From NCBI RefSeq assembly GCF_017086365.1, contig NZ_CP070969.1, forward strand, positions 3,348,001 to 3,412,000: a stretch of DNA of 64,000 nt, in the 5' to 3' direction. This DNA comes from Paenibacillus tianjinensis. GTDB taxonomy: Bacteria > Bacillota > Bacilli > Paenibacillales > Paenibacillaceae. The notes below the pieces were generated by a model. The model did no database searches and had not been told where the DNA came from. It worked only from the letters and a program-made list of their open reading frames with translations. Shown piece by piece: positions 26,619-42,421 of this stretch. How positions within the stretch are numbered: position 1 is the stretch's first letter; every line of letters begins with the position of its first letter. Position numbers and translations under genes: made by a program.

Positions 26619-26889
26619 CGGGCATCCTCCAGTCGGATAGTCGGGTTCCTTATGAAGCTTACAGCGCGAGTAATCCATTCTTTCTCTATTATACACATAT
26701 GTTTAACGTGTGACCTGGCATAAACCAATATAAAAAGAGTAATCATTTTTGCTGCCTATGGACATTAACTAGCCATTTTTATCACTCAATATAAAGCGTT
26801 GGAAATCATTGTAGTGATTTTTTTGTGATTTCATTATCCAAAATCACATAACAAAATTCAGATCCAATTCATCTTCTTCTATATAAGTG

Positions 26890-33939: not shown

Positions 33940-35946
33940 TCAAACCCACGGTTCACTTGCGAGATAAGTCCAAATAGCATCTACAGATGACTGGAGCGAT
34001 GAAATTTGAGATTGAAGATTTGAAAGCTCGGATTGCAGCGTAGTTAGAGAAGATTGACTGTACAAACTGCTCCATGATGTGATTCTTACATAACCGCTTG
34101 TCGCAAAGAGATCGACATTCTGTCCTGATATGGTCGCATTTCCAAACGCACTCAATGCTAGACCAACCCCGGGAGAGTTATATATAGTAGATTCATTTCC
34201 ATTGGCTAAGAACCTAATCTTGCTTGCGCCCCCATCATACGCTGGAATCAGAATTCCGCTGTCTGGATCTGCATATACCCCGAACGCAATACTTGACGGA
34301 TCAATTTCTACACGCGGATATATTCCAGAGTCTGCCGTCCGAATAAGTGAGCCTGTAATTGTCCCGGCTACAATATCCGAATAAGTCATTGTGCTCTCTT
34401 CAATTAACCCGGTCAGTGTAATCGACCTCGCCACGACATTCCCGGCCATATCCACCCGGAACGGAGCGCTGTTGAAGTCTGCATGCCCCGAGCTGATCCC
34501 GTTCGTGTTGATCTTGGTGATGTTGTTCCCGCTGCCGATCTCCATGGAAACGAAATTACCTAACACCCCCGCAATAACTTCAGCTGATATCCCTCTACCT
34601 GTCATGGCCGTTCGTGCCGTGACCCCACCGTCCTCTGTGATGATAATCCCGCGGGATGTCATGACCATTTGCACATTCGGATGATCCACTTCTTGCAGGA
34701 CGATCCCCCGGCTGTCGTAAATAATCTCGCTCTTGGATGCATTGATATCGATGACAGCCTGCTTAGCAAACTCCTCGAAGGCTGCTGCTCGCACCCGGCC
34801 TCCGGACAGGAGATCATTCAAGATCTGCTTGCTGCGCTCCAGATCGGCCAGTACCTGCGTGTCATCCCGCATTTGGTAGTTGGACAGTGTGACCTGGCTG
34901 TGCTGCTCCATAGAGAACGGATACTCCGTAATCTCCATCACCCTACAACTCACACGCTGCAACTCCATTTCCGGGTCATACGCATAAACCGTGTCTCCTA
35001 GCCCCGCCTGTTGCTCATCTGGATCAATCTTGTAAATGTCCGCCGCGCTGACGCTGATCTCAAACTCCGGCATTTCCCTCTTACGGAGTGCTTCACGGGT
35101 AGCGATCAGCAGCTCTTCCGGATCCTCGATGTTTTGGTCGATTAGTTCCCCGTCGTAGAAGGTGTTCACATTGTTGGTCCAATACTGAGCATACGGAGAG
35201 ATCAGGTAATTGACGACCAGTTTGTTATCGATGATGGCGCCTGGAACAGAATCCAGCAGGCTGCGCTCCTCTGTGGTTAGGAATTCGGCGGACAAACCGA
35301 TGAACGTCCGGCCGTCTTTCATCTGGCTGAATAGCCGGGTTGTCAGGTTAGAAGCATCATCCTTGAAGCTATCACTGATTATGTTCTTTCGGAACCTGTA
35401 TTCAAAGCCGTCATTGCTGCCAATCCGCTTGTAAAGGTGGATTACGGTGTTATCCGGCTCGATTTCGCAGCCGTAAAGGTTCACGGCATCCTGCAGGGCT
35501 GCCAGTGCCGTGGTCGCTCCCCAGTCCTTAATGTCCCGGAGATCGAAGCTGTCATGCGTGACGAAGGTGTACACGCCGCCGGTTGCTGCGCTGATCTTGT
35601 CCAGCAGCACGCTGATGTGGACGCCGTATGCCTCATCAATGTAATCCCCATACGGCATTTTGAAGTCCACCATTTTGAACATGATGTGAGTACAGATGAC
35701 CTGGGCGCTGATAACCTTGTTGCTGCGATCCCGGGCACGCGACTGGATGATATAAAACTGGCCACGCTCGTCTTGAACGTGGCCTTTTGGGATAATCTTC
35801 TCTTTGTAGTCGTCACTGGTCATCGGGACCGTAAAAGATATTTCGTAGTCGCTGTTCAGCCGGCGGCGGCGCTGGACGTCGGTGGATGCGACCAGCAGGC
35901 CGGTGGGTGAACGGTTGCGATCGAAAGATTTCAGGTGTTTTTGCAT
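33940..35946 (-). CDS. Tail endopeptidase / tail-tip protein (Tal-like)
   Basis: 668 residues. The N-terminal ~350 residues match the phage minor structural protein/prophage tail endopeptidase family: FDRNRSPTGLLVASTDVQ, RRRLNSDYEISFTVPMTSDD, IIPKGHVQDERGQFYIIQ, then EALRKREMPEFEISVSAADI and AGLGDTVYAYDPE. The C-terminal half is repetitive beta-rich (GRGIISE-type strands) ending in a coiled coil LQSELSNLQSQISSLQSSVD, a trimerising end. Start ATG 35946 follows GAGAGGAG. Normally this gene follows the distal tail gene; here it follows the integrase after only 16 nt. Confidence 0.88.
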   Translation of the reverse strand: MQKHLKSFDRNRSPTGLLVASTDVQRRRRLNSDYEISFTVPMTSDDYKEKIIPKGHVQDERGQFYIIQSRARDRSNKVISAQVICTHIMFKMVDFKMPYGDYIDEAYGVHISVLLDKISAATGGVYTFVTHDSFDLRDIKDWGATTALAALQDAVNLYGCEIEPDNTVIHLYKRIGSNDGFEYRFRKNIISDSFKDDASNLTTRLFSQMKDGRTFIGLSAEFLTTEERSLLDSVPGAIIDNKLVVNYLISPYAQYWTNNVNTFYDGELIDQNIEDPEELLIATREALRKREMPEFEISVSAADIYKIDPDEQQAGLGDTVYAYDPEMELQRVSCRVMEITEYPFSMEQHSQVTLSNYQMRDDTQVLADLERSKQILNDLLSGGRVRAAAFEEFAKQAVIDINASKSEIIYDSRGIVLQEVDHPNVQMVMTSRGIIITEDGGVTARTAMTGRGISAEVIAGVLGNFVSMEIGSGNNITKINTNGISSGHADFNSAPFRVDMAGNVVARSITLTGLIEESTMTYSDIVAGTITGSLIRTADSGIYPRVEIDPSSIAFGVYADPDSGILIPAYDGGASKIRFLANGNESTIYNSPGVGLALSAFGNATISGQNVDLFATSGYVRITSWSSLYSQSSLTTLQSELSNLQSQISSLQSSVDAIWTYLASEPWV

Positions 35947-35962
35947 GTTGACACTCCTCTCA

Positions 35963-36955
35963 CTATTGAACCAGGTACCGCTTGTGCTGCTCGCGTTTAC
36001 GTTCCTCCGTGATTCGAGCATATCTTAGTGTTGTTTGGGGGTCTGAATGACCCATCAATTCCTGCACTGCTACTAGCTCCGCACCATTATTAAGGGTCAA
36101 TGTAGCGAAGGTATGCCGCAGCACGTGCGGGCTCACTTTATCCTGCAAACCAGCAGCCCGGGCGATGACTGCGATCTCCCTCTGGATGCCTCGCTTGGTC
36201 AGGCGCCGGTGCGGCTTCCGCTCAGTCACCATCAGCGCTTCGCAGTCATCTGCCCGCGATTTCAGATATTTCGTCAAATGGTACATTGCCTTGAAACTGA
36301 AATACACCTCGCGTTCCTTATTGCCTTTACCAATAACACGGCAGCTCATGGACTGGTGATTGATCGCGTCCCGGTCCATACCATAGACTTCTGACAGCCG
36401 GCAGCCAGTAGCATACATGATTTCGATAAATGCCCGCTGCCGGACTGTTTTGCAAGCCTCGCGCAGCATCTCCAGCTCAGGGATCGTCAGCGCCTTAGGC
36501 AGCCGCTTCTCCAACTTCGGAGTCTTCAGCTTTGCGGACGGGTCCCTCGGCAGGATTTCTTCCGCAGTCAGCCAGCCGAAGAAGCTTTTCAACACGGACA
36601 GCTTCTTGCCGATGGTGCTCATTTTGAGCTTATCAAACTTCCCTAGATAGGCCCGGATGTCTGCCGCTGTGACAGCGTCTGTGCGCTTGCGTACATGGCA
36701 GAAGAATATATCTAAGTCTAAGGCGTATCCATCAAGCGTAAGAGGGCTCAACCCTTCTAGCCGCTTCGATGAAAGGAACATACGGACCTTCTCTTCGGCG
36801 TCAGGATGTGGTTCGTCTTCTTCAACTCTTTGGATATGGTATTTTGCAACGACTGCTGAAAGGACTGATTTCGTCCGCTCTGCGTTCAGGTCTGGATATG
36901 ATTCGTATATGACGGCCACGACATCGGACAATAGTTGCTCACTCACATTATTCAT
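35963..36955 (-). CDS. Tyrosine recombinase / phage integrase
   Basis: 330 residues with a SAM-like core-binding domain (MFLSSKRLEGLSPLTLDGYA) and a complete catalytic domain: Arg in ATGCRLSEVYG, Lys in IGKGNKERE, His-x-x-Arg in SPHVLRHTFATL, His in LMGHSDPQTT, and nucleophile Tyr in TLRYARI. All six residues are present, so it should be active. It lies inside the tail cluster, co-directional with the tail endopeptidase and divergent from an Xre repressor. Promoter TTGTTA-17 nt-TATTAT (about 36997-37025, minus strand) is covered by repressor-type operators. Confidence 0.94.
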   Translation of the reverse strand: MNNVSEQLLSDVVAVIYESYPDLNAERTKSVLSAVVAKYHIQRVEEDEPHPDAEEKVRMFLSSKRLEGLSPLTLDGYALDLDIFFCHVRKRTDAVTAADIRAYLGKFDKLKMSTIGKKLSVLKSFFGWLTAEEILPRDPSAKLKTPKLEKRLPKALTIPELEMLREACKTVRQRAFIEIMYATGCRLSEVYGMDRDAINHQSMSCRVIGKGNKEREVYFSFKAMYHLTKYLKSRADDCEALMVTERKPHRRLTKRGIQREIAVIARAAGLQDKVSPHVLRHTFATLTLNNGAELVAVQELMGHSDPQTTLRYARITEERKREQHKRYLVQ

Positions 36956-36967
36956 GTTGTCCTCCTA

Positions 36968-37051
36968 TTGTTACGAAATTCGTTATCACATCCCCATAAT
37001 ACAATGTTACTATTTACGTAACAATGGGATAATGGTACTATTTTCGTAACA
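36968..37051. promoter_or_regulatory. Lysogeny-type switch: three 19-bp operators between int and xre
   Basis: Three related dyads share TGTTAC-n7-CGTAACA: site 1 at 36969-36987 (TGTTACGAAATTCGTTATC), site 2 at 37005-37023 (TGTTACTATTTACGTAACA) and site 3 at 37033-37051 (TGGTACTATTTTCGTAACA). Site 2 lies in the 17-nt spacer of the integrase promoter. The Xre protein at 37072 is the obvious ligand. A GATAAT at 37028-37033 may be the Xre -10. Confidence 0.78.
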
Positions 37052-37071
37052 ACCATCAGGAGGCGATTAAT

Positions 37072-37284
37072 GTGATTCTTATTAAGCTTGATGACTTGCT
37101 AAAGTTAAAAAACATCTCACAGCGTGAGATCGCTAGAAGAACTGGTATTAGGCATCCGACCATAAGTGAGATGTGCCTCAACAAATCAAAGTCATTACCG
37201 GTAGAGAACCTGGACAAAATCTGTAGCGAATTGGACTGCGAATTGTCCGATATCATTGAGTACAAAAAAGAGCCGCTGGATTAA
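37072..37284 (+). CDS. Xre/Cro-type repressor beside the integrase
   Basis: 70 residues. GTG 37072 after AGGAGG. HTH in ISQREIARRTGIRHPTISEM, then VENLDKICSELDCELSDIIE. No effector, cleavage or dimerisation domain. Divergent from int with the three operators between, so it probably controls the integrase promoter and its own. Paralogous in layout to the 27260 repressor. Confidence 0.9.
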   Translation: MILIKLDDLLKLKNISQREIARRTGIRHPTISEMCLNKSKSLPVENLDKICSELDCELSDIIEYKKEPLD

Positions 37285-37301
37285 TCCGGCAGCTCTTTTT
37301 T
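37264..37301 (+). terminator. Terminator of the integrase-side Xre gene
   Basis: AAAGAGCCGCTGGA and TCCGGCAGCTCTTTT pair (two bulges) across the Xre stop codon, followed by a T run. Confidence 0.8.
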
Positions 37302-37422
37302 AATGCTCATTTTCAGTTGTCCGGTAGTGCGCAGTATGGTCCTTGATTTTTTTAATAGTAAAAATCCTCCAATCCCTATAGAATGGACATGCGTTGTCAT
37401 TTTATGGAGAGGAGGAACGATT

Positions 37423-37644
37423 TTGGAAAAAATAACCGAAATACAGATTCTATGTCTGAATTACAAATGTGTTAAGTGGTTCAGATCGCCTATTTTCTTT
37501 GGTGATATGGAAAGTCTAATGTCATCAACGCTTATTGGAAATAAAGCTCAATGTCCTCATTGTGGTCAAATGACACCATGCAATAAAGAAAACATGCGTG
37601 TACGATCCGTCGATGGCGGGTTCCGTGGATTAGATACTTTTTAA
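37423..37644 (+). CDS. Small zinc-ribbon protein
   Basis: 73 residues from TTG 37423, which has GAGGAGG upstream. Two Cys pairs (LCLNYKCVKWF and CPHCGQMTPC) make a Com/zinc-ribbon-like fold with FFGDMESLMSSTLIG between. Related in appearance to Mu Com-like or small phage zinc-ribbon regulators. The open frame continues 120 nt upstream without a ribosome binding site. Confidence 0.72.
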   Translation: MEKITEIQILCLNYKCVKWFRSPIFFGDMESLMSSTLIGNKAQCPHCGQMTPCNKENMRVRSVDGGFRGLDTF

Positions 37645-37650
37645 ACTGGC

Positions 37651-37681
37651 GAAGCCGCTACTCAGAATAGCGGCTTCATTC
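37651..37681 (+). terminator. Terminator of the zinc-ribbon gene
   Basis: GAAGCCGCTA and TAGCGGCTTC form a perfect 10-bp stem with a 7-nt loop, followed by ATTCT. It also sits at the 3' side of the convergent 50-codon gene. Confidence 0.75.
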
Positions 37682-37683
37682 TA

Positions 37684-37836
37684 CTAAATGAAAGGTTCTC
37701 TTTTCCATCTTACGCCATCGGCCATAAAGGAGAACCAGACTCCTGCATTATTCATCTTCACTACCCACTCAACGGGATAAGTCCCATCCTCGCTTCTAGC
37801 TGATTCAATCTCTCTTTCGATTTCTTGATCGTTCAT
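37684..37836 (-). CDS. 50-residue phage protein
   Basis: ATG 37836 after AAAGGAGCG, stop TAG at 37684. It reads MNDQEIEREIESARSEDGTY and ends MADGVRWKREPFI. Helical N-terminus then a beta-rich part with several Trp. No family recognised; the good ribosome binding site and codon pattern support it being real. Confidence 0.65.
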   Translation of the reverse strand: MNDQEIEREIESARSEDGTYPVEWVVKMNNAGVWFSFMADGVRWKREPFI

Positions 37837-37873
37837 GTAAATCGCTCCTTTTTATGGGTCGTTTAGAACATAA

Positions 37874-37911
37874 AAAGAGCTGCCGATTAACTTATTACGG
37901 AGCTCTTTTCA
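37874..37911. terminator. Bidirectional terminator-like hairpin
   Basis: AAAAAGAGCT and AGCTCTTTT (8-bp core) surround an 18-nt region with further pairing (GCCG/CGG). T runs on both strands. It probably ends the Tad2 transcript on the minus strand. The rest of 37912-38033 holds no gene. Confidence 0.65.
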
Positions 37912-38033
37912 CAACGTTTATTCAGTTTGGCTATTGAACAGTATGGTCCGTCTCCCTGACATATCCATAAACGTTGATATATCAGCATTTATTGGCACTT
38001 ATAAGGGTGAATAATTACTACTGCGCATTAAAA

Positions 38034-38324
38034 TTAGACGTTTACCCAATCCTCAGCCAGCATGTCGGTTTGTGACGCAAGCCATCCGACTACAATCGAA
38101 CCGTCAGCCGCCTTCATATCGATATGCGAGTTGATCGTTACTACTCCGGTATGATCTCCGCATGAATCGCAATCCTTCAGATGTGTGTACGCCTCATTGC
38201 GCAAACGGTCCTTGTCAACCAATGTTCCATGGACCATATAAACAAACATCCCCTTACCGTTCCACCCCGCCCTAGCGACTTTCTTGCCTGCCTTCAATGC
38301 TTCTATTGCTTGACCAAAATTCAT
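38034..38324 (-). CDS. tad2: Tad2-type (DUF2829) protein, candidate anti-Thoeris
   Basis: 96 residues with the DUF2829 signature from end to end: MNFGQAIEALKAGKKVARAG then WNGKGMFVYM, a middle loop with a CDSCG pair, IDMKAADGSIVVGWLASQTD and MLAEDWVNV. Proteins of this family (Tad2, e.g. from SPO1-like phages) sequester the ADP-ribose-type signal of Thoeris immunity. The CDSCGDH insert in the middle loop is not a constant family feature. ATG after AGGAGGAG. It lies among accessory genes inside the tail cluster. Activity is inferred from family only. Confidence 0.87.
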   Translation of the reverse strand: MNFGQAIEALKAGKKVARAGWNGKGMFVYMVHGTLVDKDRLRNEAYTHLKDCDSCGDHTGVVTINSHIDMKAADGSIVVGWLASQTDMLAEDWVNV

Positions 38325-38362
38325 GGATTACTCCTCCTAAAATAAAATAAAAGAAGCACCCA

Positions 38363-38530
38363 TTATGAGCGCTTCTTCCGGAACTCCTCAATCATCTTCT
38401 CTTCTTCAATGAACTCTTTCATTTGTTGGTTAACCCAGGTTGAAATCTTAATACCTTTCTTTCCAGCATATCTACAAAACTCTTCGTAAACTTCTGGATC
38501 TAGTGTGATGTTGTGTCTGGACGTAGCCAA
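38363..38530 (-). CDS. Small ribbon-helix-helix protein
   Basis: 55 residues. TTG 38530 lies 7 nt after AGGAGG. RHNITLDPEVYEEFCRYAGK shows the beta-strand then two helices of ribbon-helix-helix (Arc/CopG-type) DNA-binding proteins, then KISTWVNQQMKEF. Short acidic/basic tail. Possibly an autoregulated small regulator; no toxin gene partner is adjacent. Confidence 0.75.
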   Translation of the reverse strand: MATSRHNITLDPEVYEEFCRYAGKKGIKISTWVNQQMKEFIEEEKMIEEFRKKRS

Positions 38531-38619
38531 TACCCCACCTCCTAATGTATAGGAGTATTGTCCAATATCCACCAGTAAAGATCAATACACATCAATACAC
38601 ACTAGTACGCAGTAGGGTC

Positions 38620-38787
38620 CTACTCTGAATCAAGAATGGATTTAAACCGTAGTTTGTAGTTATCAATCTTTACCTGCAGCAAGATATTATCCTCAAAACA
38701 ACCTCTATCGTGAATTACTATGCCTTCCGAAAATTCAAAATCTTCTAAGAGTTCAAAGAAAATCTTTTCCAAATCTTCTTTATTCAT
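38620..38787 (-). CDS. Small phage protein of unknown function
   Basis: 55 residues from ATG 38787 (AAGGGA upstream): DLEKIFFELLEDFEFSEGIV then QVKIDNYKLRFKSIL. Acidic and mixed alpha/beta. No family recognised. It is divergent to the AT-rich plus-strand gene at 38830, with only about 40 nt between the start codons. Confidence 0.62.
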   Translation of the reverse strand: MNKEDLEKIFFELLEDFEFSEGIVIHDRGCFEDNILLQVKIDNYKLRFKSILDSE

Positions 38788-38829
38788 TGTCTTCAGTCCC
38801 TTATTATTAAAGTAAAGGAGATGATTTCT

Positions 38830-39546
38830 ATGACTACACCAGAACATATATTTATGATGAATGATGCTCGTGATATACTTCACAGGGTACAAAATTCTTA
38901 TCAAAAACTAATTCGAGCCGAAGATATCCCCCGTTCACTATTAAATGATGTAAGGAACTTTTTGAATAACATTGAATCAGCATTAGACTACATAGCATTT
39001 GAAGTTTTCAATAAATATTGTTTGATGACAATAACCGATCCAGCAAAAATAGAATCTGCCAAAAGGGCTGTTAATTTCCCACTTCACAAGGAAACTGAGT
39101 TTACCAGAAAAATTGATAAGGTATTTCCAGATTTGCGAACAAACAATCCGGATATAATTGATGTTTTTGAGAAGTGCCAACCCTATAATCATCCAGGTGA
39201 GTATTGGTTACCTTTATTTAATAAATTAGTGAACAATAATAAACACCGAGAACTGGAAAAGCAAAGAATATCTTCTACATCAACAATTCACAATATGATC
39301 GATGCAAATGGAAATACATTCACCAATGTGACATTCCAGGGATTCAGCGCTGATATGAAAATTGATGGTAATGAAGTCAATCTCAGAACGTTTAATAATC
39401 ATCCTCATATACGTTTTCTTGATGCAACAGTTAGAGTGGATTTTATTTTTAAATCTCTTAATACTCCGGTTCTTCCAGCTCTAACATCAATATACATAGG
39501 GGCAAACTCAGTAGTGAATGAGATCAATATGTTATTGAATAAATAG
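38830..39546 (+). CDS. AT-rich accessory protein of the SALDY...NKHR type
   Basis: 238 residues, clearly more AT-rich than its neighbours and on the opposite strand to the tail genes. ATG 38830 follows AAAGGAGATG. The pattern NFLNNIESALDYIAFEVFNK, VNFPLHKETEF and FNKLVNNNKHRELEK resembles a widespread uncharacterised bacterial family with RSALDYLA and NIDKHR-like motifs, helical and HEPN-like in arrangement. No enzymatic residue can be confirmed. Likely a recently acquired moron. Confidence 0.72.
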   Translation: MTTPEHIFMMNDARDILHRVQNSYQKLIRAEDIPRSLLNDVRNFLNNIESALDYIAFEVFNKYCLMTITDPAKIESAKRAVNFPLHKETEFTRKIDKVFPDLRTNNPDIIDVFEKCQPYNHPGEYWLPLFNKLVNNNKHRELEKQRISSTSTIHNMIDANGNTFTNVTFQGFSADMKIDGNEVNLRTFNNHPHIRFLDATVRVDFIFKSLNTPVLPALTSIYIGANSVVNEINMLLNK

Positions 39547-39563
39547 CAATCATTCCATTCAAA

Positions 39564-39842
39564 TTAACAATCCACAGCCTGAATGTACTTGTCAAGAATC
39601 TTCAAATGCTCGTATCCCTGCTTCAGATTGTTGTCAGAATTGTCTGACAAGTCAGGCTCAAACATAACCATGTCACGATCTATAACAATTATCTGAGTCT
39701 CATCGTAAGCCGTAACACTAATCTTTTGAGTTTTTGTGGGGGTAGTTGCTTCGATAACTGAGTTCGTTATTTTTACATAACAGTTTTCGAAAGTAACTAC
39801 CTCACCTTGGACGGTTCTTGATATGTTCATTTTCAGCGCCAT
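39564..39842 (-). CDS. Phage protein following the fibre gene
   Basis: 92 residues: MALKMNISRTVQGEVVTFEN, then VIEATTPTKTQKISVTAYDE and an acidic stretch FEPDLSDNSDNNL. Beta-rich, cytosolic or virion-associated. ATG follows AGGAGG. Located 12 nt after the fibre stop, so it is probably co-expressed with it. Possibly a tail-fibre accessory or chaperone, not recognised. Confidence 0.65.
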   Translation of the reverse strand: MALKMNISRTVQGEVVTFENCYVKITNSVIEATTPTKTQKISVTAYDETQIIVIDRDMVMFEPDLSDNSDNNLKQGYEHLKILDKYIQAVDC

Positions 39843-39853
39843 TCGGCATCCTC

Positions 39854-41611
39854 CTACAATTTTATTATTTCTACGATGCTGTGATACCCATTTACCGTGC
39901 CGGCCGGTGTATCTTCCGACTTTAAAATCAAATTGAATTGCCCTTCACTTGTAACCTCGAAAACATTCGAAAACCGGATATTCTTTTCAGAAACATCGAC
40001 ATCAAAATATCTACTATCGTAGCCAGACCCTCCAGCACTCACCGCAACCCCCGGCGTAGTCACACCCGTTGTATTGATCTCAAGGCGACATGTCCCTCCA
40101 GCCGTTAAAGCAACTGTGTTAAGGCTCGTTCTTAGCATATACCTGCCTCTTCCTAACCATATCGCTGATAACTGCTTGATCGTCGTTCCAGCTGCGATGA
40201 TAGATGATTGAGAGATAGGTGACCATTGGTGCTCTTGAGAATTATTTGTTAAATTCCCGTTCACCGCATATTCAAAGTAAAACGGATACGCTAAGTTGTC
40301 GGCATTCGGTACATTACTAAGCGAGACATCGTGGGCTAAGCCTTTGCACTGCACGTAGCTTTCATAATAGCGGAAATTAGCATTGTTGATATTCACGTAA
40401 CTGTTCTGATTCTCAAGTACGATGCCGATGTGAGTGCCCGTTATGTCGCTATCAAAGTGGAGGTCACTCATGACGATATCTTGTACCCAAGGGTGCATCA
40501 TGATAGTTGTTCCGGCTTTTTGCAGCTGAAAATGAATGCCATTAAAGCTTGATCGGTATGATTGTGGAGACGTAGGTCCGATATGCCCAAACTCCATTCC
40601 CAACGTATATATCCATACGTTATTAAATTTGAGACCGTCAATTTTTTCATTTCGATCAACCAAGAGAGGCAAGCACCCCACGCCTCCGCAGTCGAAATAA
40701 ACATTACTGAACATACCTATGAATAGATCATTGATCTGGTAATTGCGCTCGAAATGGTAGAACAGCGTATTACTGAGCACAAGGCCCTCCGGATAGTGTG
40801 TCCCATTTGCGATTGCATACAGTCCCTTAGTGCCTGTCCGTGACTGTGCTTCATCATTTACAAAGTAAGAGTTTGTTATATTAACTTCTGCAGATTTGTC
40901 AGTATAATAAATCCCATTTGCGGCATATGAATTGATTTGGTTAAACGTAGATTTGCGTAGGCATTTGCAATAGGCGAACCACGTATAGTTGTTGGCTACA
41001 ATATTTTCAATAAAGACATCTTTAATAGATGTGGCGTAGCTCGTATTTTCGCCGTCGATGTAAAATACATGTGTCGTACCGCTTCTGACGTTATTAAGCG
41101 TAATATTGATAATTGTTGGTTTTTGCGTACCGGATGCGAAGTAAAATACTCTACTTGTATTTGTAATAATCTCTGCATTTTGGCCGTCAAGGTAGGCATT
41201 ACTGGGAACGGTAATGATCGAATTAAAATGAAACGATCCTGCATCTTTCGCAAGTGCTACCTTACGGCCTAGATTAAGGAGTATTTGCACAAGTGCTGCG
41301 TCATCGCCACCGCTGGGCTTAAGCGTCACTATATCCGCCAACTGCGCACTAACCGCGCCATGCTCCGTGTCCAGCCGTTCCCGCAGCGTTGTATAATCCT
41401 CGCGTGCATCAACGATCTCCAGGTTACTTTCGCCGCTACTCGCTACAATATTATCAACACGACCGTCCAGCGTATTAATATTGGTTTCCGCTGTACTGAT
41501 CCGGCCGCGATGCTCAGTCAGATCCGTTTCGATATCTGCAAAGTTGTCATTATGCCGCTGAAGATTCAACAGATCCAGCGTCTTTGTTATAACTCTCCGT
41601 GCAAAAGCCAT
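39854..41611 (-). CDS. Tail fibre/spike with right-handed beta-helix
   Basis: 585 residues. N-terminus: coiled-coil like LTEHRGRISTAETNINTLDG, then the phage-fibre motif ESNLEIVDAREDYTTLRERL typical of baseplate/BppU-like adsorption proteins. The middle (about 115-430) has short repeating strands rich in N, V, F and G (SFHFNSIITVPSNAYLDGQN, IVANNYTWFAYCKCLR), the pectate-lyase-type beta-helix, followed by a beta-sandwich C-terminus. Receptor binding or glycan degradation is expected. It directly follows the distal tail gene. Confidence 0.83.
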   Translation of the reverse strand: MAFARRVITKTLDLLNLQRHNDNFADIETDLTEHRGRISTAETNINTLDGRVDNIVASSGESNLEIVDAREDYTTLRERLDTEHGAVSAQLADIVTLKPSGGDDAALVQILLNLGRKVALAKDAGSFHFNSIITVPSNAYLDGQNAEIITNTSRVFYFASGTQKPTIINITLNNVRSGTTHVFYIDGENTSYATSIKDVFIENIVANNYTWFAYCKCLRKSTFNQINSYAANGIYYTDKSAEVNITNSYFVNDEAQSRTGTKGLYAIANGTHYPEGLVLSNTLFYHFERNYQINDLFIGMFSNVYFDCGGVGCLPLLVDRNEKIDGLKFNNVWIYTLGMEFGHIGPTSPQSYRSSFNGIHFQLQKAGTTIMMHPWVQDIVMSDLHFDSDITGTHIGIVLENQNSYVNINNANFRYYESYVQCKGLAHDVSLSNVPNADNLAYPFYFEYAVNGNLTNNSQEHQWSPISQSSIIAAGTTIKQLSAIWLGRGRYMLRTSLNTVALTAGGTCRLEINTTGVTTPGVAVSAGGSGYDSRYFDVDVSEKNIRFSNVFEVTSEGQFNLILKSEDTPAGTVNGYHSIVEIIKL

Positions 41612-41626: not shown

Positions 41627-42421
41627 CTAAAATAGATATTTATATCGATAAATAATCTCCAGCGTAAATGACGGAGATGTGGCGTTGATCGTGAAGGTCG
41701 TTGCGCCAGGCGGAAGCTCAAAGAATACCCCATTACTACGGGAATAAGCATTTGCTCCATTCAAGCGCACTGTACATTTGTCTGGATCACAATCAATTTC
41801 CAGAACATCATTCGCACCGATGCTGCCAGAGAACGTGAAGCTATGGGTACTGTCACTGATCGACAGGTCTGTGAACGAACCGGTGATACGGATCAACGGG
41901 TAAGCCGTTTCAGAACCAATATTGTCGACTGTGACGGTCTGGCCGCTCGCAATAATCGGGAAAGAGGAATCCGAGATATAAAAATAGCCTTCCCCGAAGG
42001 AAAGGCCAGCTCCGTATTCATGCTGCTCCGTGTTCTGCACCGACTCCACCCATGGATCATCCATCTTTAAGGGTACACTGATCAACCGGTTGCCTGTCGA
42101 AGTATCGAATGACATAGACCCGCGATATTCTGCGATGTACCGCTTATCCGGCCTGTCGTCAAAGATAATAACCAAGGGTCCTCGTCGGATGTTGAACAAA
42201 GCTGCCAGCTTCGCCACAGTGCCGTCGTAATCATCACCCATGATAAATAAACCCAGGCCGATTGTCCGGGCCGCGTAGGTGCTGCCAAAGTTCTTGACGC
42301 CGTCCCTGCCGGCGATCTTGACCGTGTTCTCCTCTGTATCCGGTAATGCCGGAATTTCCCGGCTCACTAGCAGAATATCCAGCGTCGATAGCCACACCCC
42401 ATTTACAGACACGTCATTCAT
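41627..42421 (-). CDS. Distal tail protein (Dit-like)
   Basis: 264 residues of the phage tail family that caps the siphovirus tail tube and anchors the tip. N-terminal domain: VNGVWLSTLDILLVSREIPA, KIAGRDGVKNFGSTYAARTI, FNIRRGPLVIIFDDRPDKRY and FDTSTGNRLISVPLKMDDPW. The C-terminal part is a galectin-like sandwich. Its ATG overlaps the tape-measure stop (ATGA). Confidence 0.88.
   Translation of the reverse strand: MNDVSVNGVWLSTLDILLVSREIPALPDTEENTVKIAGRDGVKNFGSTYAARTIGLGLFIMGDDYDGTVAKLAALFNIRRGPLVIIFDDRPDKRYIAEYRGSMSFDTSTGNRLISVPLKMDDPWVESVQNTEQHEYGAGLSFGEGYFYISDSSFPIIASGQTVTVDNIGSETAYPLIRITGSFTDLSISDSTHSFTFSGSIGANDVLEIDCDPDKCTVRLNGANAYSRSNGVFFELPPGATTFTINATSPSFTLEIIYRYKYLF

Follow-up and report, generated by a model that had tools for sequence, protein, structure and literature searches.

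The window analyzed here is a stretch of 64,000 nucleotides (G000:C1:3348001-3412000) from the 6.27-Mb single-contig genome of Paenibacillus tianjinensis. It carries the late genes of a prophage on its minus strand, in the order terminase, portal, capsid, tape measure, distal tail protein (Dit), tail spike, an intervening block of genes, tail endopeptidase (Tal), endolysin, and holin. The block (35963-39842) contains a tyrosine recombinase, a divergent Xre-type repressor and several small genes, and three of its genes (37072, 37423, and 38830) lie on the strand opposite to the tail genes. In genes and strands the map of open reading frames (ORFs) agrees with a sequence-only reading of the same DNA, which had described it as a lysogeny and counter-defense block within the tail gene cluster, ending at 39842. 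We find that the unit extends past that position and into the spike gene, to about 41333. We think it likely, from the sequence comparisons described below, that the stretch from a short site inside the spike gene (the left site) to a second kind of short site after the accompanying cargo genes (the right site) is a cassette with site-marked edges, and that the adjoining XerD-like recombinase exchanges such cassettes between phages.

The left site (consensus TRNTGCGCAGTTGGCGGAW) lies in frame inside the spike gene, where it reads ATCCGCCAACTGCGCACTA on the plus strand and TAGTGCGCAGTTGGCGGAT on the coding strand and encodes S-A-Q-L-A-D. The right site (consensus WHGGACCATACTGCGCANYA, from 34 sites, with little conservation outside a stretch of about 20 bp) occurs three times in the window (Table 1); the lead to it was a repeat family (D1, 18 bp) with three copies in the block. 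The two kinds of site share an arm, ACTGCGCANYA, in inverted orientation, and differ in their inner halves (TGGCGGAW on the left versus WHGGACCAT on the right). A half-site scan of 64 loci gave 23 inverted matches and no direct ones in the 218 kb upstream of right sites, whereas the control, 284 kb downstream, gave no inverted and two direct matches; the 23 comprise 21 distinct fiber-position genes, one other ORF, and one duplicate. At the junction of the N-terminal and C-terminal parts of 37 genes, taken for fibers by position and sequence, an xQLA row has its Gln-Leu encoded by CAG-TTG in all 37 and the next Ala by GCG in 35. The shares of these codons in the same ORFs are 0.50 (CAG), 0.19 (TTG), and 0.26 (GCG), and all three would be expected jointly in about 2.5%. 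The CAG-TTG codons are kept in fibers with very different N-termini, and none of the five xQLA rows in other genes (set aside by eye from a total of 42) uses CAG-TTG-GCG.

The two kinds of site also occur together. When IMG/VR was searched with the left site alone, 47 loci were found, in 45 of which the site is in frame in a stretch that is open as far as the sequence reached. Eighteen left-site loci extend at least 4.5 kb downstream; nine of them have a strict right site there, and none of the 18 has one on the opposite strand. Upstream, a strict right site was found in none of the 18 left-site loci with 4.5 kb on that side. Six of the nine strict-right-site loci were already known, and the 12 new loci gave three strict sites and four variant ones (of the GGAYSAWWTAGCGCA type, assigned by eye). 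In relatives that lack the recombinase, the right site is likewise found between fiber and Tal, and in 25 of 40 loci its start lies no more than 30 bp past the end of a fiber or cargo ORF of at least 60 amino acids, or it overlaps that end.

The breakpoints of homology fall at the same sites. Among 57 distinct left-site contexts, none of 125 high-scoring segment pairs (HSPs) passes through the site; of the in-register right ends within -200 to +300 of its start, 38 of 62 lie at +10 to +39 (the 15-mer ends at +15), and 15 of the 26 HSP left ends near it lie at -20 to +9. Both sites were compared over 36 loci (171 pairs with any homology). At 60 bp ahead of the left site 18 pairs still match, but at the site itself and from +60 to +400 the number is zero; at the last right site no pair matches at -60 bp, 17 match at +60, and 56 at +1000. 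HSP left ends fall at right sites in 31 of 492 cases (1.1 sites per locus) versus 19 at other stop codons (9.5 per locus). Nine duplicates were dropped before the HSP-end and half-site counts, one more before the codon count, and two pairs before the 171-pair comparison.

Individual pairs of loci give the same picture on both sides of the cassette. L365 and L367 (refetched as L383 and L382), two contigs of one IMG genome id, have one mismatch in 7226 bp from the right site on (99.99%) and no HSP between the sites, and homology reappears left of the cassette, in a 3554-bp stretch (95.4%) that runs from the tape measure to within the fiber N-terminus. The first 343 nucleotides of their fiber genes are identical, ending just after ACCGCGCAGTTGGCACAAA, which contains the right-site arm in reverse. 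In L168 and L342 both outer flanks match and nothing inside does. A cassette with the ribbon-helix-helix (RHH) gene is bounded by sites in the window, in G064 C137, in L355 (the same as L136), and in L356, each time with other neighbors, and its edges lie between 12 bp before and 33 bp after the first base of the sites.

The recombinase gene is linked to the right site by position. In each locus the 700 bp preceding the recombinase start were scored for the best site-like sequence, and this was compared with control windows taken from that locus. Of 17 loci in the family (at least 59% identity), 16 have a site-like sequence, 203-639 bp upstream of the start, that scores above all their control windows. 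Six of these 17 loci had supplied sites for the matrix, and 10 of the 11 that gave it none also pass, whereas nine integrases outside the family (L368-L376) have no site of at least 17 bits within 1500 bp (best, 9.3). The left site was seen in 12 of the 17 recombinase loci, and in two more (L359 and G014) the sequence ends at or before the position where it would lie. Diverged recombinases have diverged right sites at the same place (GGAAGAAACTGTGCGGTA in L363, GGAACATACTGTGCGGTA in L364, and GGACGCTACTGTCTGGTA in L365 and L367), and GGTA ends both the left and the right arm in the diverged clade (L363-L365, support 98/98); in L363 the left and right arms are both AACTGTGCGGTA. Besides TGCGCA, the arm variants TGAACA (TTCA) and TACGCA (CGTA) occur in left as well as right sites, and the left and right arm types of one locus may differ.

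Within the genus the exact right-site 15-mer was found at 16 places in 14 of 100 genomes, against none for the reversed control, and two of the 16 (L116 and L118) have unlike, coding-looking surroundings. When one mismatch was allowed, 29 family genomes out of 394 matched, 23 of which belong to the genus of the window, versus three for the control; nine of these places (L338, L339, L344, L346-L349, L351, and L354) look like coding sequence or chance and were dropped by eye. A search of genome contigs gave 12 exact places, seven in records titled Paenibacillus. The last A of the site is present in all 18 sites collected with the 15-mer alone; viral loci were picked by eye for intergenic, tail-linked sites. 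Among 50,697 records of named phages, at the sensitivity of the query, there was one chance-level match to the right site and only chance-level matches to the left. In five loci of another prophage group (L243, L251, L261, L266, and L268), a variant form of the right site, GGACGATACTGCGCAAYA, with a terminator-like hairpin behind it, separates short fiber-side genes from the next gene. A possible second type of right site (GGAYSAWWTAGCGCARCA and close variants) lies downstream of the same left site in L416, L421, L432, L444, and L450.

The recombinase itself is complete, as had been read from the sequence (PF00589, E 1.7e-35, 122.7 bits; N-terminal SAM-like PF02899, 38 bits; both over the cut-off), and its translation contains the residues R, K, H..R, H, and Y, which we take to be the catalytic set of tyrosine recombinases. 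The nearest solved structure is XerD (1a0p, E 6e-39 over 269 residues). It is not an integrase of the IntI type, as found in integrons: the match to IntI4 (E 3.6e-14 over 66 residues) is far weaker than that to XerD. Close relatives (at least 60% identity) occur in four of the 100 genus genomes, namely that of the window, G064 (two prophages, 92% and 91%), G035 (62%), and G014 (in two pieces), and the other genomes among the matches listed reach 36-38%. IMG/VR contributed 13 loci at 59% or more, two of them apparently the G064 loci, and the site searches added L255 (the contig of L361), L270, and L330 (the contig of L357). In the mapped loci the recombinase sits after the fiber gene or the cargo, and the gene that follows it varies (Tal, a second fiber, or lysis genes). 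In G014 (L041 with L040) the recombinase gene is split over two frames, and that of L360 has no open frame in the map; both are apparently decayed copies that still adjoin a right site.

More distant relatives were found in other settings. In the Terrisporobacter phage TPELB_ph1 (L033, PP197244.1, 15705-18640), which also has other annotated integrases, a 36% relative lies 207 bp after a fiber-like gene and before the holin; by eye, a Paenibacillus-type site was not seen near it. Relatives from the human gut (30-36% identity) lie in other genomic settings and have no such site in the 900 bp upstream. Three gut-phage contigs (L378, L379, and L380) carry 31-33% relatives beside genes that look like hsdM and hsdS (from their translations, by eye), as in hsdS shuffling systems.

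A second tyrosine integrase lies beyond the window, at the outer end of the prophage (G000:C1:3429409-3430671), with Xre-like ORFs of repressor type (labeled by eye) near it. A 13-bp repeat, TATTATACACATA, has one copy in the window and the other just past this integrase (Table 1), and three relatives (G006, G029, and G090; L386-L388) have an empty chromosomal site whose flanks are contiguous at 93.6-95.6% identity and overlap by 13-17 bp at the repeat. The empty sites therefore set the borders of the prophage at G000:C1:3374687-3430769 (56,083 bp), and the recombinase in the window is not the prophage integrase. An alternative attachment (att) core, an 18-bp T-rich repeat at 26814 of the window whose right copy lies at the end of the outer integrase, was rejected because the empty sites favor the 13-bp repeat; no tRNA that could serve as the integration target was found in the window. 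The block is thus not the lysogeny module that it was first read as: the att core adjoins the other integrase, and the prophage's own integrase and repressor-type genes are at its outer end. The layout that would have counted against the sequence-only reading, with integrase and repressor fixed at this place in many related phages and a normal attP next to this integrase, was not what was found; a Dit relative occurs in 21 of the 100 genus genomes, versus four with a close relative of the window recombinase. The other role that the sequence-only reading had allowed for the recombinase, rearrangement of the tail-fiber region, is supported.

Table 1. Features of the window and of the prophage borders (positions are those of the window unless a contig position is given).
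Feature	Position	Strand	Basis or remark
13-bp prophage att core TATTATACACATA, left copy	26687-26699	.	repeat search, empty sites
13-bp prophage att core TATTATACACATA, right copy	G000:C1:3430757	.	86 bp past outer integrase
Tail endopeptidase (Tal), backbone	33940-35946	-	likely start 35946
XerD-like tyrosine recombinase (int), 330 amino acids, proposed cassette recombinase	35963-36955	-	PF00589
Three operator-like copies TTGTTACGWAAWT, between xre and int	36963-37052	.	repeats, sequence reading
Xre-type repressor (xre)	37072-37284	+	PF13443
Terminator-like hairpin 3' of xre	37264-37301	.	inverted repeat I2
Right site 1, GGACCATACTGCGCACTA, full consensus, 387 bp before int start	37325-37342	-	site searches
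Cargo gene, 73 amino acids, possible zinc ribbon (weak)	37423-37644	+	PF12760, E 0.017
ORF of 50 amino acids, possible cargo, no family match	37684-37836	-	ORF list, profile searches
Right site 2, GGACCATACTGTTCAATA	37932-37949	-	repeat family D1
Tad2-like (Thoeris anti-defense 2-like) cargo gene	38034-38324	-	PF11195, E 1.1e-27
RHH gene (Arc-like, weak match)	38363-38572	-	phrog_3180, E 8e-5
Right site 3, GGACCCTACTGCGTACTA	38603-38620	-	repeat family D1
Small cargo ORF, stop codon overlapping right site 3	38620-38787	-	ORF list
AT-rich cargo gene, 238 amino acids	38830-39546	+	phrog_13652 (unknown function), E 6e-9
Small fiber-associated gene, 92 amino acids	39564-39842	-	phrog_18037
Tail spike/fiber gene, 585 amino acids	39854-41611	-	N-terminal part with backbone, tip with cassette
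Left site inside spike gene, inverted relative to right sites	41333-41351	+	half-site scan, codon and breakpoint comparisons
Distal tail protein Dit, backbone	41627-42421	-	relatives in 21 of 100 genus genomes

The families of the remaining block genes agree in part with what had been read from the letters. The repressor matches PF13443 (E 7e-17), with the three operator-like copies lying toward int, and the Tad2-type gene, whose function is predicted from its sequence, matches PF11195 well above the cut-off (96.8 bits against 25). The RHH gene and the zinc-ribbon gene are present, but the family match of the first is weak and that of the second is below the cut-off. The AT-rich gene is present as described, and genes that look like the small fiber-associated gene follow several fibers in relatives. 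Of the label counter-defense there is one bearer, the Tad2-like gene, and no further gene stands behind it; a PADLOC scan gave weak matches only. An overlap between the Tal and int ORFs is a start-codon artifact, the likely ATG of Tal being 16 bp from the int stop.

The cargo of the window consists of the Tad2-like gene, the RHH gene, the possible zinc ribbon, and the 238-amino-acid gene. In relatives, 14 of 20 cargo genes chosen by hand from cassettes match glycan-making or acyl-transfer/esterase families, 12 of them at or over the curated cut-off; the families are Acyl_transf_3 (six), O-antigen polymerase/ligase (three, two below the cut-off), EpsG, glycosyltransferase, GDSL esterase, hexapeptide transferase, and PMT_2. 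Base composition changes along the locus: the G+C content of the spike N-terminus is 0.505, but it drops to 0.424 in the tip of the spike and to 0.33-0.44 across the cargo. For xre it is 0.42, for int 0.52, and for Tal 0.51, and the spike N-terminus, Dit, recombinase, and Tal are all within 0.50-0.52.

The shared inverted arm, the unlike inner halves, the sharp breakpoints, and the clade-wise change of the arms fit cassette exchange between two phage genomes. In the mechanism that we propose, the recombinase would bind the shared arm at both sites, and two DNA molecules, those of the prophage and of an incoming phage, would recombine at like sites, one left site with the other left site and one right site with the other; this pairing is expected because the inner halves differ. 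The outcome would be a swap of spike tip and cargo as one unit, as in recombinase-mediated cassette exchange, rather than their inversion or deletion. With right sites in tandem, phages could pick up or drop additional cargo (RHH with Tad2, and the zinc-ribbon gene) independently. We predict that the Xre protein, with its operators, holds the recombinase off, and the presence of three operator-like copies between xre and int points to tight repression. The likely benefit is that a new receptor-binding tip would arrive together with a gene that modifies the receptor or blocks a defense.

Extended to the group, this would mean that the temperate phages of Paenibacillus and its relatives share a natural cassette-exchange platform, in which the same in-frame docking site and closing site recur across unrelated tail types, tip and receptor-remodeling or defense-disarming gene are traded as a packet, and the recombinase may act in trans; we give this broader proposal about an even chance. 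A swap is predicted to change which cells the phage grips and how the infected cell fends off rivals. Phages shift their host range by exchanging tail tips. For the movement of tips between unrelated phages of Gram-positive bacteria, both edges of the unit and a candidate enzyme can now be named, the edges to within a few bases, and, if the proposal is true, it would explain why the tip and the receptor-altering gene stay together. The two short sequences can be used to find receptor-binding tips and new cargo (surface enzymes and counter-defense genes) in genomes.

Several observations weigh against exchange by this enzyme, and the main weakness is its rarity relative to the sites. Most site-bearing loci have no such recombinase in the flanking DNA examined, and in the genus a close recombinase is found in four of 100 genomes versus 14 of 100 with the exact 15-mer; it would thus need to act in trans or be frequently lost, unless it is not the enzyme. 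No site lies within 700 bp upstream of the recombinase in L362, and none was found for that of L384 (56%); no left site was recognized in G035, L362, and L270. Because L365 and L367 share their right part and L363 and L364 come from one IMG genome, the 17 recombinase loci cannot all count as independent. An inverted-repeat core of the kind that we take to be typical of dif or lambda att is missing from the right site. HSP right ends are not enriched at right sites (6 of 496, versus 75 at other stop codons), and few pairs match inside the cassette (at most four of 171, 400 bp before the last right site). Besides L382 and L383, both outer flanks match by DNA in only one pair (L168 and L342), and the identical 7.2 kb of L365 and L367 could partly be an assembly effect. 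We infer the action of the recombinase, its direction, its repression by Xre, and its action in trans from sequence; no exchange reaction, circular form, or mixed reads were observed.

The same rarity, both around the site-bearing loci and in the genus counts, would be expected if relaxed homologous recombination by Rad52-like proteins or RecA used the sites as conserved boundaries and the recombinase gene were a passenger beside the fiber, and phage mosaics formed by relaxed homologous recombination are documented (PMC3945230). We regard this explanation as unlikely: the matching stretch is only about 20 bp, synonymous codons are preserved at the left site across unlike fiber N-termini, both arms vary in step with the recombinase clade, and 16 of the 17 loci have the recombinase close behind a right-site-like sequence. 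Mutual inversion of the two arms could instead point to a DNA-inversion system (shufflon) for the tail tip, in which inverted sites flip the cassette as in Rin of bifidophages, and the near functional analogues Rin and PsrA are inverting tyrosine recombinases (PMC6109161 and PMC7096588). But no minus-strand HSP of at least 80 bp was found among 41 loci (silent tips were not searched one by one), none of 73 loci (79 scanned, less six without a 20-bit site) has right sites of at least 20 bits on both strands, and the inner halves of the two sites differ; inversion is accordingly quite improbable.

Insertion into the tail operon of a satellite or nested mobile element with its own integrase and repressor, one of the explanations offered by the sequence-only reading, draws on the presence of both these genes beside a low-G+C stretch. 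The low G+C stops before the recombinase, however, and the same recombinase follows fibers in phages of different tail type with different right neighbors. The edges of the cassette are two short sites, one of them inside a gene that is kept in frame. A repeat listing of 33-43 kb, covering 20 direct families (of at least 60) and 25 inverted pairs (of 40), contains no element ends or target duplications at the block edges and no repeats flanking the block, and we consider a satellite very improbable indeed. That the right site is a transcription element (a terminator or antiterminator signal), as the terminator-like hairpin that often follows it (by eye) might suggest, has hardly any likelihood, given that a ribosome-binding site directly follows it in L161, L168, L170, L337, and L342, homology breaks at it, and its arm recurs inverted inside coding sequence.

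The proposed cassette exchange by the XerD-like recombinase can be compared with several known systems. In the Rin shufflon of Bifidobacterium prophages, an XerD-like recombinase acting at 11-bp asymmetric repeated sites inverts several resident C-termini of receptor-binding proteins (PMC6109161). The arrangement described here resembles it in having an XerD-like recombinase without an arm-binding domain, distinct from the prophage integrase and adjoining a receptor-binding gene, short asymmetric repeated sites, and a C-terminus that varies after a constant N-terminus. It differs in that the variants are found in other phages, with no inversion seen in the 41 loci compared, one cassette is bounded by two unlike kinds of site, and the tip is accompanied by cargo genes. 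Exchange of side tail fibers among coliphages is most probably driven by invertases (PMC3945230), and for the Min, Cin, and Gin systems, as here, site-specific recombination has been proposed to spread fiber genes between unrelated phages (PMC6109161 and PMC3945230); those are serine recombinases that invert, whereas the present enzyme is a tyrosine recombinase, the right site lies beyond the cargo, and the sequences are others.

At the pneumococcal hsdS genes, TvrR acts by excision and reintegration, its gene being held down by its neighbors in tvr (PMC6265443), and PsrA by inversion (PMC7096588). Both share with the present arrangement a local recombinase that shuffles modules through short repeats, but they act on chromosomal restriction genes and exchange within one locus. 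Phage integrons, reported in Vibrio, Shewanella, and E. coli phages, likewise combine a recombinase with an array of site-tailed cargo (PMC9892861), but use integron integrases with attC and attI, whereas the left site here is inside a structural gene. A paper on Paenibacillus larvae phages, in the portion drawn on, merely lists an XerC-type recombinase and fiber genes (PMC4168068), and no report on these sites or this arrangement was recognized by title or opening of the abstract among the literature matches listed. We view the arrangement as a form of site-specific tail-fiber variation, and there is a case for regarding it as a new kind.

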